Source of the DNA: Deltaproteobacteria bacterium
GTDB taxonomy: Bacteria > Desulfobacterota > Syntrophorhabdia > Syntrophorhabdales > JANXAF01
NCBI GenBank assembly: GCA_026417175.1
Contig: JAOADT010000013.1
Span: 1-58,807, forward strand
Reading direction: 5' to 3'
Length of the DNA stretch: 58,807 nt
Part shown: positions 5,247 to 11,913 of the stretch, one piece after another
How the letters are laid out: each line of letters starts with the position of its first letter
How positions within the stretch are numbered: the stretch's first letter is position 1
Program-made: the position numbers and the translations under genes
The notes under the pieces: generated by a model
Told to the model about the DNA's origin: nothing
The model's input: the letters and a program-made list of their open reading frames with translations, nothing else
Database searches by the model: none

Positions 5247-5714
5247 TTATTCCTTTGAACAAACATCTTCAACTGCCTCTATAATCTTCTTATACCCGGT
5301 ACATCTACATAGATTGGAAGAAATAGCTTCTATAATCTCACTTCTATTAGGCCTAGAGTTCCTGTCAAGCAGGGATTTTGCCGTCATTATCATCCCTGGA
5401 GTACAGAATCCACACTGAACAGCGCCTTTCTCCATAAAGGCCTTCTGTAGTGGATGTAAATTTCCATTCTTTTTTAAACCTTCTATAGTCTCAATAATGG
5501 CATCTTCGACTTCCAATGTGAGAATGAGGCATGATCTAACCGGCTTTCTGTTTACAATAACTGTGCACGCACCACAGGAACCGAGACCACATGCCTCCTT
5601 GGCTCCTGTAAGCAAAAGTCTTTCCCTTAAAGTTTCAAGAAGGGTTTCGTAGGGCCTCACATGAAGAGTTACTTTTTCGTTGTTTACCGTAAAAGAAATC
5701 TTTCTATTGCGCAT
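5247..5714 (-). CDS. hcrC: 4-hydroxybenzoyl-CoA reductase-like gamma subunit, 2x[2Fe-2S]
   Basis: A 155-aa small subunit of a xanthine-oxidase-family molybdenum enzyme. The N-terminal plant-type ferredoxin domain has Cys42, Cys47, Cys50 and Cys62 (CGLGSCGAC then SC). The helical domain has Cys101, Cys104, Cys136 and Cys138 (CGFCTPGM and CRCTGY) for the second [2Fe-2S] cluster. It passes electrons between the FAD subunit and the molybdenum site. It is the last gene of hcrA-hcrB-hcrC, 1 nt after hcrB, so strictly coupled. Assignment to 4-hydroxybenzoyl-CoA reductase rests on the partner hcrB; alone this subunit cannot be told from CoxS or xanthine dehydrogenase small subunits. Confidence 0.88.
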   Translation of the reverse strand: MRNRKISFTVNNEKVTLHVRPYETLLETLRERLLLTGAKEACGLGSCGACTVIVNRKPVRSCLILTLEVEDAIIETIEGLKKNGNLHPLQKAFMEKGAVQCGFCTPGMIMTAKSLLDRNSRPNRSEIIEAISSNLCRCTGYKKIIEAVEDVCSKE

Positions 5715-5715
5715 C

Positions 5716-6660
5716 TTAAGCCCCCTTTTTTGTCTTCTCTATCAGTTTTATAGCTATGACTTTTCCCATCTTTTTTCTGTACACTGGAGAGACTACTGTA
5801 TTATTCACCGGCTTAAGATCATTAAAAACGGTTTCTGAAAGAATTTTCACTCGTTCTTCTTCTATAGTCTCTACTGAATAAACACAAGGTTTGGAACCAA
5901 TAGCTCCAACTACCAATTTTCCACCTTTAGAATCCATCGTAAAAGCACCATTTATTAAGGGATAATCTATGGATCCTCTGATTCTAATCTTTTCAAATGC
6001 TCCCTGCCTTTTTCCGCCTGGGATTATTATCTCTTTCACTATCTCCCCTTGCCTCAAATTAAAAGGTTTCTCCGGTTTACCTGTAAGAATCTCTTCGAAA
6101 TCGCATTTTCTCTGCCCGTCCTTTCCAACAATTACTAGTTTTGAACCTAAAGATAAAAGTGCTGTTGCTAGGTCACTCGAGTAATTAGCATAACAGACAT
6201 TTTTTCCTCCCGTTGCGTGACATACATTTCCTCCCATCTTATAGCAAAAACCCTTTGCCCTTCTCCAAGTCAAAGACTTGTTATAAAAAAGACACCTTGT
6301 ATCCTGAAGTATATTCCCTCCGATAGTCCCTCTCATCTGTAATACCTCACAGGAAGTCTGCGCACATGCTTCATAGAGAGTCGGAAGGTTTTCTCTTATA
6401 ATCTCACTGTTTTTAAGCTCGAATATTGTGGTATTCGCTCCAATGACATACATTTCATCCGTTTTTTTGATGCCTACCATCTCTTCAATACCTTTAAGAT
6501 CTATAACTAAGGAAGGTGTTCTAAGTCTTAATTTTATCCTGGGAATAAGATCGGTTCCTCCCGCAAAATACGCCGCTTCTCCATTACTTTTCTCAAAATA
6601 CTCTATCGCCTCTTCCAAGCTTTTCGCCTTTTTGTAATCTAACTTAGGGAGTATCATCAA
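5716..6660 (-). CDS. hcrB: 4-hydroxybenzoyl-CoA reductase-like beta subunit (FAD + extra [4Fe-4S])
   Basis: A 314-aa FAD subunit of the CoxM/xanthine dehydrogenase type. FAD-binding motifs are AGGTDL (33-38) and the TIGGNI segment (112-117). Just after it comes an insertion with Cys123, Cys139, Cys147 and Cys156. In the established literature a loop with four Cys at this place binds an additional [4Fe-4S] cluster only in 4-hydroxybenzoyl-CoA reductase, where it routes low-potential electrons for reductive dehydroxylation; the 16-8-9 spacing matches the one I recall for the Thauera enzyme. Other members of the superfamily lack it. The gene overlaps hcrA by 4 nt. This loop is the main reason for the specific call. 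Confidence 0.8.
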   Translation of the reverse strand: MMILPKLDYKKAKSLEEAIEYFEKSNGEAAYFAGGTDLIPRIKLRLRTPSLVIDLKGIEEMVGIKKTDEMYVIGANTTIFELKNSEIIRENLPTLYEACAQTSCEVLQMRGTIGGNILQDTRCLFYNKSLTWRRAKGFCYKMGGNVCHATGGKNVCYANYSSDLATALLSLGSKLVIVGKDGQRKCDFEEILTGKPEKPFNLRQGEIVKEIIIPGGKRQGAFEKIRIRGSIDYPLINGAFTMDSKGGKLVVGAIGSKPCVYSVETIEEERVKILSETVFNDLKPVNNTVVSPVYRKKMGKVIAIKLIEKTKKGA

Positions 6661-8927
6661 CCTTCCTCCGTTTGCAAAAGTTCAAGCACTTTGTCTGGTG
6701 TTAACGGCAGTTCCTTAAAAAGTCTTCCCGTTGCGTTATAAAAGGCACTTGCAATAGCGCTGTAAGCGCTCATTCTTATAGTCAAACCTCCTTCTTTTGC
6801 TCCAAAGGGACCCTCTGGATCCATAGTGGTGACCAAGACAGTTTCAATATCTGGCATGTCTTTGGCGGTGGGTATTTTGTACTCTAATAGGTCCGGGTTC
6901 ATTAGGAAACCATTGTGCCATATGTTACCCTCCATTATGGCAGCTATTCCGGCTTGCATGATACCTCCCTCGAGCTGACCTTCCACTGCCATAGGATTTA
7001 TAGGCCTACCACAATCATGGGCAGCTATGAACTTATGGACTTTTATCTTTCCAGTATTTTCATCTACAGTTAACTCCGCAACGGATGTTCCGTAACTGAA
7101 AGATCCAGCCATCTGACCAAAGGGTTTTGATACCCATTCTCTTTTTAGATCTATATTAGGAAAATAGGATCCAACCCCAATGATTGGTTTTCCACGCAAA
7201 AAGGCTTCCCGTACAATCCATGAGATAGGTATCTTGTTTTCGGGGTTTTTTCGAGAGAATACCATCCTTTCTTTAATCACTATATCCTTTATTTCACATG
7301 AGAGCTTCTCTCGTGCAATTTCAGCTATCTGTCTTCTTGCATCTTCACACGCTCTCTTTACAGCGTTTGCACCCACGAAAGTGGCAGCCTGTGAATATGC
7401 ACCAGGATCCAAACTGGTAGCCTCAGTATCTGCGTTGATTATGTTTATATCCTCCATCGGAATTCCTAATACTTCAGACGCAATCTGAATTGCCATTGAC
7501 TCATTTCCCTGACCATTATCTACTATTGCGGTAATAATTGTCGCTTGACCATCATCGTTAAATTTAACGGAGCAGGAAGAGCCTGATCTGAAACCCATCG
7601 GAAAACCGCACATTATAGCTACACACCCCATTCCAACACCTTTTAGCCGTGTTGCTTTTTTCCATTTGTTTTTAAAATCTACTTTCTTGGTGGCCTCTTC
7701 TATAGTTTCTTGAAGACCGCAACTTATTATTTTTGATCCTGTTGCTGTCTCTTCTCCAGCTCTCAGCCCATTTTTCAATCTTATCTCAATGGGATCAAGA
7801 CCTAACTCTTTTGCAATTAAGTCAAGTTGAGCCTCACATCCTGCAAGAAAAGCTCTTCCATGACATCCGTACATACCTCTTATACCCTTGTTTGTGTAAA
7901 CCCGGTATCCATGATATCGGACATTAGCCATTCTATAACACTCTTCGTATACATAAAACGGGACAGATGCAGCGATCGGTCCTGTGCTACTATAAGCACC
8001 ACCATCATATATGACCTCGTAATCCCTAGCAACTATGGTTCCGTCTTTTTTTACACCTGTTTTAATTCTTGCCACTACATCATGGACCTGCCTGCTACTT
8101 ATGGCGTTTTCTTCCCTCGACATGACCAGCTTTACAGGTCTTTCTGTTTTAATTGAAAGCAAAGAAACAATAAAATCAGCAGGTGCTACCTCTGACCTTC
8201 CCCCAAAGGCACCACCTATAAACACATGCCTCACTCTGATTCTGTTCAAGGGAATTTTCAGAAGATTAGAGAGCGCTTTTGCACGAACATGTGGTCCCGC
8301 GTTGGGCATCCACAAATCTAGGTATCCATTTTTGTAATACGCGACGCAGGCGTATGGCTCAAGCATTGCGTACGCTTCACCTTGGGCTCTGAACTTGTCC
8401 TCCCTTACGTAGTGGGCCTCTTTAAAAGCTTTATCCACATCGCCCACTTCTATATGGACATGGATGTTTATATTCCTGGGATAACCTTCATGAATTAAGG
8501 GCGCTCCATCCTTCATTGCCTCCTCAGGATCAAAAACGGGCTCAAGGGGCTCATAGTCAACTTTTATCAGCTCTATGGCTTCCTGAGCTGTCTCCTCATC
8601 TATAGCCGCACAAGCAGCTATGTCTTCTCCTACATATCTTACCTTGTCTATTGGTAGCATCATATGATCTTGCGTATATTTAAAAACACCCCACTTAACC
8701 CCGTATCCATCCTTTCCTGTAATCACCGCTTTCACACCGGGAACTCTCTTCGCTTTTGAGATATCTATATTTACAATTTTAGCGTGTGGATAAGGACTTC
8801 TTAAAACCTTAGCTATGAGCATATTAGGAAGTTTGATGTCAGCTGTATACTCCGCTGCGCCCGTGACCTTATATATAGAATCCGTACGTGGGACCCTTTT
8901 TCCAACTACATAAAGTTCTTCTTCCAT
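6657..8927 (-). CDS. hcrA: 4-hydroxybenzoyl-CoA reductase-like alpha subunit (molybdopterin)
   Basis: A 756-aa molybdopterin-cytosine-dinucleotide subunit of the xanthine oxidase family, the usual length for HcrA. Conserved features include the N-terminal a/b-hammerhead (SIYKVTGAAEYTADI), MEPYACVAYY around 188-197, GGAFGGRSE (238-246) and a later GQGNES. In 4-hydroxybenzoyl-CoA reductase this subunit removes the para-hydroxyl group to yield benzoyl-CoA. One oddity: the near-universal Mo-site glutamate (GAKGxGE in most relatives) is replaced, since the sequence reads GAKEGGL with Leu715 at the Glu position. The ATG has a good AGGGGG Shine-Dalgarno and its own promoter. The TRAP genes upstream on the same strand suggest uptake of the aromatic substrate. 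Confidence 0.8.
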   Translation of the reverse strand: MEEELYVVGKRVPRTDSIYKVTGAAEYTADIKLPNMLIAKVLRSPYPHAKIVNIDISKAKRVPGVKAVITGKDGYGVKWGVFKYTQDHMMLPIDKVRYVGEDIAACAAIDEETAQEAIELIKVDYEPLEPVFDPEEAMKDGAPLIHEGYPRNINIHVHIEVGDVDKAFKEAHYVREDKFRAQGEAYAMLEPYACVAYYKNGYLDLWMPNAGPHVRAKALSNLLKIPLNRIRVRHVFIGGAFGGRSEVAPADFIVSLLSIKTERPVKLVMSREENAISSRQVHDVVARIKTGVKKDGTIVARDYEVIYDGGAYSSTGPIAASVPFYVYEECYRMANVRYHGYRVYTNKGIRGMYGCHGRAFLAGCEAQLDLIAKELGLDPIEIRLKNGLRAGEETATGSKIISCGLQETIEEATKKVDFKNKWKKATRLKGVGMGCVAIMCGFPMGFRSGSSCSVKFNDDGQATIITAIVDNGQGNESMAIQIASEVLGIPMEDINIINADTEATSLDPGAYSQAATFVGANAVKRACEDARRQIAEIAREKLSCEIKDIVIKERMVFSRKNPENKIPISWIVREAFLRGKPIIGVGSYFPNIDLKREWVSKPFGQMAGSFSYGTSVAELTVDENTGKIKVHKFIAAHDCGRPINPMAVEGQLEGGIMQAGIAAIMEGNIWHNGFLMNPDLLEYKIPTAKDMPDIETVLVTTMDPEGPFGAKEGGLTIRMSAYSAIASAFYNATGRLFKELPLTPDKVLELLQTEEG

Positions 8928-9048: not shown

Positions 9049-10356
9049 TTACTTCATTAGACTTGGTAGATATGTGGCTATCTGTGGGAACAAGGTGAGA
9101 AGCAAAGCCAAAATTATTTTGGCAATCCAAAAAGGGGTTGCCCCTTTAAAAATAGTAGAAAGAGGTACATCTTTCGCCACACCCGCTGTCACGTAAACAC
9201 AAATGCCCACAGGAGGTGTAAGTGTACCTATACTAACCATAACTATTAGAACAATTCCAAACCATATAGGGTCAAATCCCAGTTTTATTATAAGTGGATG
9301 CATGATTGGAACCGTGAGTGCAATAATAGCAAGTCCGTCTATAAAACAGCCAAGTATGATGTAAAAAACGTAGATACCTAAAATCACAACGTAGGGAGAA
9401 ACGGGTAGTCCAAGCACAAACTCTGAAAGCCTCGTAGGTATATTTGTTACAGTAATAAATCGTCCAAACATATTGGCACCGATTAAAATGAGAAAGACCA
9501 TCCCTGTTACAACAGCCGCTTCATTTAATGCGTTTTTAAAATTTTCTCCTGTGATTTTTTTTGTGACAAGTGAAAAAACAAGTGAAGCGAAAGCCCCTAC
9601 AGCTGCTGCCTCTGTGGGCGTGAACACACCGAGGTAAATCCCTCCCATTGAAAGGATGAAAATCCCTATGACAGGGTATATCTTAGAGGAGATTTTTACT
9701 TTTTCCAAAAAGGATATATTTGCATCATACGTAGAAGGAGCAACCTTAGGGTCTATCCTTATCCATATAGCTATGACGCATATATATAAAACGATTAAAA
9801 GGATACCAGGCAGTATCCCGGCAATCAAAAGTTTTCCAATAGACTCATATGTCAAAAGACCGTAAAGAACAAGGGCGGTACTCGGAGGGATCAGGATGTC
9901 TATCCCTCCACCTGCTGCTATACAGCCCGTAGAGAATGAATCTTTATACCCGTACCTTCTCATCTCGGGGAGAGCAACCGCGGTAAATGTGGCAACAGTT
10001 GCAATGATTGAGCCTGAAAGAGCACCAAAAACACCGCAGGCTCCAACTGTTGCCATCGCAAGTCCGCCCCTAAATTTTCCAATCCACACATTAAGCGCCG
10101 AGTATATTTCCCTTCCGAGTCCTGCGTGGAGAAGAAAAAGACCCATGAGCACAAAAAGCGGGATAACGCTTAATGCATGCACACTTGCACTCGCAAAAAC
10201 ATCCATTCCCAATTTTGCCAGTGTCGCTTTAACGTTTGTGAGATAAGCGAAACCACAGAGCCCTACAAGAAGCATAGATAAACCAATAGGCAGTCTTATG
10301 GCCATCACACCTAGAAACACAAGTATTCCGATGATACCAACCGTTTCGGGACTCAT
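9049..10356 (-). CDS. dctM: TRAP transporter large permease DctM
   Basis: A 435-aa integral membrane protein, about 12 hydrophobic helices, of the DctM/SiaM family. It forms the Na+-coupled translocation channel of a tripartite ATP-independent periplasmic transporter. The N-terminal IRLPIGLSM and the Gly-rich helices (GACGVFGALSGS, GGGIDILIPPST, LTPPVGICVYV) are characteristic family signatures. It overlaps dctQ by 4 nt, so the two membrane subunits are cotranslated. The neighbouring hcr genes suggest an aromatic or other organic acid as substrate, but TRAP specificity cannot be read from the permease. Confidence 0.93.
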   Translation of the reverse strand: MSPETVGIIGILVFLGVMAIRLPIGLSMLLVGLCGFAYLTNVKATLAKLGMDVFASASVHALSVIPLFVLMGLFLLHAGLGREIYSALNVWIGKFRGGLAMATVGACGVFGALSGSIIATVATFTAVALPEMRRYGYKDSFSTGCIAAGGGIDILIPPSTALVLYGLLTYESIGKLLIAGILPGILLIVLYICVIAIWIRIDPKVAPSTYDANISFLEKVKISSKIYPVIGIFILSMGGIYLGVFTPTEAAAVGAFASLVFSLVTKKITGENFKNALNEAAVVTGMVFLILIGANMFGRFITVTNIPTRLSEFVLGLPVSPYVVILGIYVFYIILGCFIDGLAIIALTVPIMHPLIIKLGFDPIWFGIVLIVMVSIGTLTPPVGICVYVTAGVAKDVPLSTIFKGATPFWIAKIILALLLTLFPQIATYLPSLMK

Positions 10357-10853
10357 TTTCTCGCCTGTTCCAATGACCTAAGGAAGTCAATTGCCAAAAC
10401 TAAAAAATAAAAAAAAGTGCCCACTGCCGCTGCGATGAAAAAAGGATAAATTGGAAGATGCAAAACTCCCGTGACTGTATGCCCTAGATAAATCCTTTTC
10501 GCATGAACAAGAAGCTGCCAAGTCATAAGGAGACTTAATACCATGCTTATAAGATAAACTGCACAATCAAGTAAAGCCTGAGCTTTTGATGAAAGCTTTA
10601 TGAATAGAGCTTCGATGGCTATATGACCTTTTTTATGCTGGGTATAAGCAATGGAAAAAAACACAAAAAGGGCGAGCATAAATTCCGTCACTTCGTAAGA
10701 TCCTGTCACGGGAGCCGCGAAGAATTTCCTTCCAAAAACATCTACTATCGTCAAAAACATCATGGCCACCAGTATAATCAGTCCAATATTTTTCACAACA
10801 AACATATACCTAAGAAAGTATCTTTCCAGAAAATGAAGAACTTTTTGGATCAT
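10353..10853 (-). CDS. dctQ: TRAP transporter small permease DctQ
   Basis: A 166-aa protein with four hydrophobic helices (about residues 20-40, 55-75, 95-115, 135-155), the DctQ layout. The motif DVFGRKFF after the first helix is typical of the family. It acts as the small membrane subunit of the TRAP transporter and overlaps dctM by 4 nt. It starts 24 nt after the stop of dctP, in the usual P-Q-M order. Confidence 0.92.
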   Translation of the reverse strand: MIQKVLHFLERYFLRYMFVVKNIGLIILVAMMFLTIVDVFGRKFFAAPVTGSYEVTEFMLALFVFFSIAYTQHKKGHIAIEALFIKLSSKAQALLDCAVYLISMVLSLLMTWQLLVHAKRIYLGHTVTGVLHLPIYPFFIAAAVGTFFYFLVLAIDFLRSLEQARK

Positions 10854-10877
10854 CTTTAGATCCTGATACTATCTAGT

Positions 10878-11885
10878 TTACTCCCTACTTGCCTTCACCA
10901 TCTCATCATAGAACCGTTTGCCAGGCAAACCCTTCCCTTCTATTTTCGAAATCCATGAATTGTATACTGGAGCCACAGCATTACGCCATTTTTCAAAATC
11001 TTCCCTGGTTAGTTCATGGATTTGCACATTCGCTTTCTTATGATCTTCTATTGATTTTTTTGCAATGTTATCATAAATCTCCGCTCCCTTGAGCGCGAGC
11101 TTTTTACCGGTCGTATCTTCTATTATCTTTTTATCCTTCGGAGAGAGTTTATCGAATGCCTGTTTATTCATAGCAACAATCATAACTGGTACGTACGCGT
11201 TAAGAACCGTAGCATGGGAGATTACCTCATAAAGCCTATAATGCATGCTTGCGGACCAGGGTGTAAAAACCCCATCTATTACACCTCTTTTTAACATTTC
11301 ATACTGCTCTCCCACAGGCGCTGTAATCGGAGATGCACCTAGGGCTGATGCAAGTTCTTTTGTTGACGGTCCGTGAACTCTTATTTTTAGTCCTTTTAAG
11401 TCAGCTACACCCCGTATCGGTTTCTTTGTGAAAAGTTGACCAGGATCTCCAGCCCATATCCATAGTATTTTTGTGTCTGCATACTCTTTTCTAAATTCTG
11501 GAACTTTATCCCATAGCGTATAGATCGTTTTTGTCACATGTTGGGCGGAATTGAACATAAATGGCAATTCAAAACATTCCGTGAGGGGAAACTTTCCTGC
11601 CGTATATGAGGGCAATGTGTAAATCAATTCGGCAATGCCTGTAACAACGGAATCGTAAAGATCTGAAGGTTTGGCAAGCGTAGCATTTGGATAAATTGTG
11701 ATTTTAACTCTGCCTTCAGTGAGTTTTTCAATCTCTTTTGCCCACGGCTCAATCACTTCCGCATGCATTGCGTGAGAAGTCGGCACGAAGTGCGCAAGTT
11801 TTAACTCTGTCGCACCATTAACTTTTGTGGAGAAAGCTAAAATCAGACAAAAAACAAATACTAACCATATTTGTAACTTTTTCAT
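10878..11885 (-). CDS. dctP: TRAP transporter solute-binding protein DctP
   Basis: The periplasmic binding subunit of the TRAP system, 335 aa from the start chosen here. MKKLQIW followed by a hydrophobic stretch ending near STKVNGATELKLAH is a clear Sec signal peptide. The mature protein shows the DctP fold, with KGLKIRVHG (carboxylate-binding Arg) and GVIDGVFTPWSA. An in-frame ATG exists 18 nt upstream at 11903. I prefer 11885 because it has an AGGGGGT Shine-Dalgarno at ideal distance and begins the signal peptide, whereas 11903 would lie only about 4 nt from the predicted transcription start. The gene heads dctP-dctQ-dctM and probably reads on towards hcrABC. Confidence 0.9.
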   Translation of the reverse strand: MKKLQIWLVFVFCLILAFSTKVNGATELKLAHFVPTSHAMHAEVIEPWAKEIEKLTEGRVKITIYPNATLAKPSDLYDSVVTGIAELIYTLPSYTAGKFPLTECFELPFMFNSAQHVTKTIYTLWDKVPEFRKEYADTKILWIWAGDPGQLFTKKPIRGVADLKGLKIRVHGPSTKELASALGASPITAPVGEQYEMLKRGVIDGVFTPWSASMHYRLYEVISHATVLNAYVPVMIVAMNKQAFDKLSPKDKKIIEDTTGKKLALKGAEIYDNIAKKSIEDHKKANVQIHELTREDFEKWRNAVAPVYNSWISKIEGKGLPGKRFYDEMVKASRE

Positions 11886-11913
11886 CGTTTTGACCCCCTG
11901 CATTTTTTCGGAT

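Follow-up and report, generated by a model that had tools for sequence, protein, structure and literature searches.

An undescribed branch of the xanthine oxidase family with a remodelled molybdenum site in uncultured anaerobic bacteria

Characterised molybdenum enzymes of the xanthine oxidase (XO) family share a catalytic hallmark, a glutamate at the Mo site (Glu1261 in the bovine enzyme). Treated as a key catalytic residue of the family, it activates the Mo-OH ligand in characterised members (PMC10420851), and the usual mechanism needs it, because mouse AOX1 E1265Q is inactive (PMC2671166). In the window (the whole 58,807-nt stretch of DNA that was analysed), a three-gene operon encodes an HcrA-like molybdenum subunit with a leucine in place of this glutamate. 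Is this a damaged gene, or does the Mo centre of its product do something else?

The reading frame of the subunit is intact, and its translation lies above the Pfam cut-offs for Ald_Xan_dh_C, MoCoBD_1 and MoCoBD_2. An AF2 model built on a 110-sequence alignment (pLDDT 93.6, pTM 0.92) finds its best PDB match in 1rm6 (TM 0.94–0.95, rmsd 1.9–2.2 Å), which contains the HcrA chain of T. aromatica. HMMER aligns the loop with this chain without gaps, as GPFGAKEGGLTI against GPFGAKEASEGM, placing Leu715 opposite the glutamate that closes the HcrA loop GAKEASE; in the model, a helix begins at residue 715. A MAFFT alignment with HcrA and M. smegmatis CoxL likewise sets Leu715 opposite Glu, confirming the initial annotation, which had read the loop as being in register with leucine at the Mo-glutamate position. 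Domains and fold are those of an XO superfamily large subunit, and the hallmark glutamate is absent. Judged by sequence and predicted fold, homology to the superfamily stands, while membership of a known catalytic type does not. The positions of the features discussed here are collected in the table.

Table. Features of the molybdenum enzyme locus, with positions in the window
Feature	Position	Strand	Basis
TRAP transporter genes dctM, dctQ-like and dctP, directly upstream of the Mo operon	9049..11903	-	
HcrA-like molybdenum subunit, 756 aa, Glu-less clade	6657..8927	-	Pfam, TIGR03194, AF2 fold
Ala210 (Gln in HCR and CoxL)	8298..8300	-	71 vs 41 comparison
Gly354-Cys355 (Arg-Gly in most relatives; XO Arg880 loop)	7863..7868	-	alignments
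GFPMGFR segment, residues 441-447, near-invariant in the clade	7587..7607	-	clade comparison
Gln513 (Ser in HCR, CoxL and 40/41 Glu/Gln-type proteins)	7389..7391	-	71 vs 41 comparison
Arg-Glu-Trp 596-598, clade-specific near-invariant insertion	7134..7142	-	clade comparison
GAKEGGL loop (G709 to L715)	6783..6803	-	translation, HMMER, MAFFT
Leu715 codon TTG at the Mo-glutamate position	6783-6785	-	translation and alignments
HcrB-like FAD subunit	5716..6660	-	Pfam FAD_binding_5; TIGR03195 200.1 bits (cut-off 404.55)
HCR-type [4Fe-4S] loop of the HcrB-like subunit (Cys123, 139, 147, 156)	6193..6294	-	
HcrC-like subunit, two [2Fe-2S] sites	5247..5714	-	Fer2 and Fer2_2 above cut-off

The leucine is not confined to this genome. 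In a tree of 112 proteins (a quick LG+G4 tree with the Mo loops left out and some long outer branches), 70 proteins from Desulfobacterota and Chloroflexi, 48–100% identical to the protein of the window, form one clade (SH-aLRT 99), and all of them carry Leu, Met or Ile at position 715. The 41 more distant relatives have Glu (39) or Gln (2) there. Whether a clade shares the leucine was a check proposed with the initial annotation, and it gave a clear yes. A scan of contigs returned 31 loci at 67–85% identity, with Leu or Ile in every one that covers the loop, while relatives at 42% identity or less have Glu, or Gln in two cases. Across the phylum, 58 of 395 genomes (~15%) encode a close homologue, defined by E ≤ 1e-190, with a gap in identity between ~49% and ~45%; in the regions fetched from these genomes and from Chloroflexi, every member covering the loop has Leu, Met or Ile. 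Two proteins, L156 (Leu, 43% identity) and L155 (Glu, 45%), adjoin the clade in an order that the tree leaves open. On these sequences, the pattern would be explained by one loss, or by one loss together with one reversal or parallel change. A separate HcrA-like set from Betaproteobacteria and Chloroflexi (L045, L047, L186, L187 and L192) has Gln at the Mo-glutamate position (GAKEAGQG) and keeps the Arg.

Chance, assembly error and decay are excluded, because about 30 independent genomes (67–85% identical) and the entire 70-member clade carry Leu, Met or Ile. The comparison with the two nearest genomes gives a dN of ~0.10 with saturated dS, i.e. the HcrA-like gene is under strong purifying selection. 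Sequencing error or decay was rejected on both counts, the clade-wide change and the substitution rates. Our searches of the open-access literature returned no report of a natural XO-family clade without the glutamate, nor of its gene set; the HcrA-like gene represents an undescribed lineage of molybdenum enzymes that occurs in many uncultured anaerobes.

What else has changed around the molybdenum? The initial annotation had taken all other motifs to be intact, which proved wrong: the subunit has Ala210, Gly354, Cys355 and Gln513 where most relatives have Gln, Arg, Gly and Ser, respectively. We compared 71 Glu-less proteins (the 70-member clade and the outlier L156) with the 41 Glu/Gln-type proteins. 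Position 210, equivalent to the Mo oxo-group contacts Gln767 of XO and Gln240 of CO dehydrogenase (CODH), is Gln in 31 of the 41, including HCR (4-hydroxybenzoyl-CoA reductase) and CoxL, and Ala or Gly in 70 of the 71, with L156 as the exception. At position 354 (XO Arg880), the Glu-less proteins have Arg (37), Gly (31, the subclade of the window) or Pro (3). Position 513, near the Mo, is Gln or Met in 71/71 and Ser in all but one of the Glu/Gln-type proteins. In total, more than 40 positions are specific to the clade, and its new invariant residues include Glu328, Arg447, Asn475 and Gln605. Arg447 (71/71) is part of the GFPMG.R segment, a probable substrate-channel segment. L155 retains both Glu and Gln, yet already has Glu328, Arg447 and Trp598; changes in the pocket therefore seem to predate those at the Mo site. 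With the clade's Arg447 and Trp598 next to a Lys at the Arg position, this Glu-containing neighbour (L155:6656-8932) may still resemble the ancestral form.

A conventional explanation would be that another acid has replaced the glutamate in what is otherwise an ordinary XO-family hydroxylase or an HCR-like reductase. There are two candidates, Glu712 in the same loop and the gained Glu328, and both are found in 71/71 Glu-less proteins. We consider such a replacement unlikely: Glu712 is already present in HCR and in 23 of the 41 Glu/Gln-type relatives, beside the usual residue, and is thus no gain; the loop aligns without gaps; and the oxo-contact Gln is gone as well, a sign that the entire site was altered.

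Alternatively, the Mo site could be dead or empty in a non-catalytic relative retained as a scaffold or as a partner in electron transfer, a thought prompted by the absence of a residue held to be essential in characterised enzymes. The state of the remaining cofactor sites makes this improbable. Residues contacting the pterin are retained (Q473 in 68/71, N644 in 71/71, Q651 in 70/71, and K711 is also kept), as are all Fe-S ligands: the four [4Fe-4S] cysteines are present in 59/59 HcrB-like sequences from the fetched loci, and the eight [2Fe-2S] cysteines in 31/31 HcrC-like sequences. The remodelled site itself is near-invariant across the 70 proteins. The genome further encodes two XdhC-type maturation proteins, which count against an empty site, though they possibly serve its several other XO-family large subunits, these with the Glu. 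The suggestion of changed chemistry rather than decay is thereby strengthened, resting as it now does on a clade-defining change, further fixed changes at the Mo site, purifying selection and the cofactor motifs kept in all three subunits.

Cys355 raises the prospect of a site like that of Mo/Cu CODH, where Cys388 binds a Cu bridged to the Mo. Nearly all Glu/Gln-type proteins (39/41) have Gly at position 355; the cysteine of the window's protein aligns at or near that of CoxL, as do those of the rest of its subclade and two neighbouring groups. A second metal at this position is very unlikely, however, since only 36 of the 71 Glu-less proteins have Cys, the others having Thr, Val, Ile, Met, His or Ala; CODH retains both the Glu and the Gln that are lost here; and in the MAFFT alignment, CoxL is offset by one residue in this very loop. 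Cys355 is also not essential, because two members of the Leu subclade (L023 and L175) have Ala instead. Least probable of all is a simple HCR orthologue with a tolerated substitution: HCR is the closest curated family and the closest structure, but we rejected this candidate on the curated cut-offs (TIGR03193–TIGR03195), as all three subunits fall short of the HCR equivalog thresholds (alpha, TIGR03194, 635.7 against 994.55 bits; beta, TIGR03195, as tabulated; gamma, 163.9 against 257.8), and on the tree, in which 1rm6 HcrA groups with L078 and L079 in a Glu-containing clade outside the Glu-less one, and it would leave the clade-specific positions unaccounted for. The same placement and scores, together with invariant residues peculiar to the clade along the presumed substrate channel, favour the different substrate that had been suggested at the outset.

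The genes found next to the enzyme offer a view of the pathway in which it might act. TRAP transporter genes adjoin the Mo gene not only in the window, but also in L170 and some loci of other subclades. In related genomes, three genes neighbour the Mo enzyme: one for a VOC protein, one for a saccharopine-dehydrogenase-like protein and one for a class-III aminotransferase of the GSA-aminomutase type. The genome of the window has these three together on a separate contig (C12); their order and housekeeping neighbours there match those of relatives in which the trio adjoins the Mo genes. Among the 395 genomes, with kinship uncorrected, the aminotransferase-like gene is found in 35/58 with the Mo enzyme and 6/337 without (Fisher p ~2e-28), and the saccharopine-dehydrogenase-like gene in 32/58 and 5/337 (p ~5e-26), respectively. 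Loci of other subclades contain genes for CaiB CoA-transferase, acyl-CoA dehydrogenase (ACAD), VOC and methylmalonyl-CoA-mutase-like proteins, along with ETF, FixX-like ferredoxin and thiolase-like neighbours that were read by eye, without a profile. Two contexts can thus be distinguished, one of VOC with saccharopine-dehydrogenase-like and GSA-aminomutase-like genes, the other of CaiB with ACAD/ETF and VOC, with or without the mutase; to our knowledge, neither matches a known pathway. The CoA-transferase and acyl-CoA dehydrogenase-type neighbours point to an acyl-CoA pathway. Since the Glu-containing relatives look HCR-like as well, a CoA substrate would not by itself speak for new chemistry.

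Some of these loci have features of their own. The VOC partner, which resembles methylmalonyl-CoA epimerase (e.g. L194:8210-8701), has His8 and Glu129 in 33/33 sequences and Phe/Leu at the HH motif of the epimerases. That motif position is presumably a metal ligand in VOC epimerases, and because of its replacement the partner may function without the usual metal site. A 97-aa MoaD/SAMP-like protein that ends in GG and scores below family cut-offs is encoded just downstream of the HcrC-like gene in L004 (10753-11046) and at 13 other loci of the window's clade. Four loci (L008, L019, L141 and L162) encode, next to the Glu-less enzyme, another one of the CoxLMS type that has the Glu, and a PaaK-like CoA ligase, joined in L008 and L019 by a hydantoinase-B-like gene; this arrangement suggests a pathway with two Mo enzymes.

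What chemistry could such a site support? Residues that were replaced and then strictly kept speak, as far as sequence can tell, for a new chemistry and against a defective gene. With the Glu and the oxo-contact Gln lost (and the Arg in the window's subclade), a Mo-OH ligand would not be activatable in the usual way, and the strict conservation that followed therefore fits chemistry independent of base-activated Mo-OH. We propose that a single ancestral step, or something close to it, reshaped the active site, which has stayed constant since, with a hydrophobic residue in place of the general base, Ala in place of the oxo-contact Gln and, in the window's subclade, Gly in place of the active-site Arg. 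The motifs retained for molybdopterin, two [2Fe-2S] clusters, FAD and the HCR-type [4Fe-4S] cluster suggest that electrons would pass between a low-potential carrier and the Mo. Of the readings considered here, we favour a redox reaction on an acyl-CoA. In its simplest forms, a leaving group would be removed reductively as in HCR, or hydride or electrons would be transferred at Mo=S, with the proton handled by a newly gained polar side chain such as that of Gln513 or of another clade-specific residue. The substrate (a CoA ester), the lack of Mo-OH base catalysis and any direction of electron flow are what we infer here from an observed clade, its residue changes, their conservation and the gene linkage. 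The reductive enzyme that the initial annotation considered is possible on this evidence; the invariant [4Fe-4S] loop of the HcrB-like partners would mark HCR-like electron transfer, not its direction. We judge the case for an uncharacterised XO-family clade that performs acyl-CoA redox chemistry at a remodelled Mo site, without base-activated Mo-OH, to be evenly balanced. Only tentatively, and with doubt outweighing confidence, do we extend it to a new and widespread catalytic type of the family, active on acyl-CoA without the glutamate base and the oxo-contacting glutamine, whose reaction would be neither Mo-OH hydroxylation nor its reverse and which would belong to an undescribed pathway with the saccharopine-dehydrogenase-like, GSA-aminomutase-like and VOC proteins.

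A natural lineage with some 70 sampled members that lacks both the glutamate and the oxo-contacting Gln provides a direct way to ask what a Mo centre does without base catalysis. The enzyme could also mark an unrecognised pathway in anaerobes, given its presence in 58/395 genomes of the phylum, 35 of them with the partner aminotransferase-like gene. Annotation of Glu-less proteins by their closest family, as 4-hydroxybenzoyl-CoA reductase or xanthine dehydrogenase, is probably wrong.

Among known systems, HCR (HcrABC, PDB 1rm6/1sb3) is closest, sharing the three-subunit layout, the fold, 34% identity, the GAKE loop and the [4Fe-4S] loop of the FAD subunit. It differs at the Mo site, where the enzyme described here has Leu for Glu, Ala for the oxo-contact Gln, Gly-Cys for Arg-Gly and Gln for Ser, as well as in clade and in curated score. 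Mo/Cu CODH (CoxL, PDB 8uem, 1n5w) belongs to the same superfamily and has its Cu-binding Cys in the loop that contains Cys355; unlike the Glu-less clade, in which the Cys is not general, it combines this residue with a conserved Glu and Gln. Xanthine oxidoreductase and aldehyde oxidase share the fold and the Mo domains, but their base-catalysed mechanism needs the very Glu that is absent here. The searched passages of a 2025 urolithin paper (PMC12771579) do not mention the glutamate in urolithin C dehydroxylase (Ucdh/UcdCFO) of E. bolteae, and we set this enzyme beside ours by its description there rather than by sequence. According to the paper, Ucdh follows HCR as the second of the reductive XO-family enzymes, and further ones are to be expected, a precedent for reductive members beyond those two.
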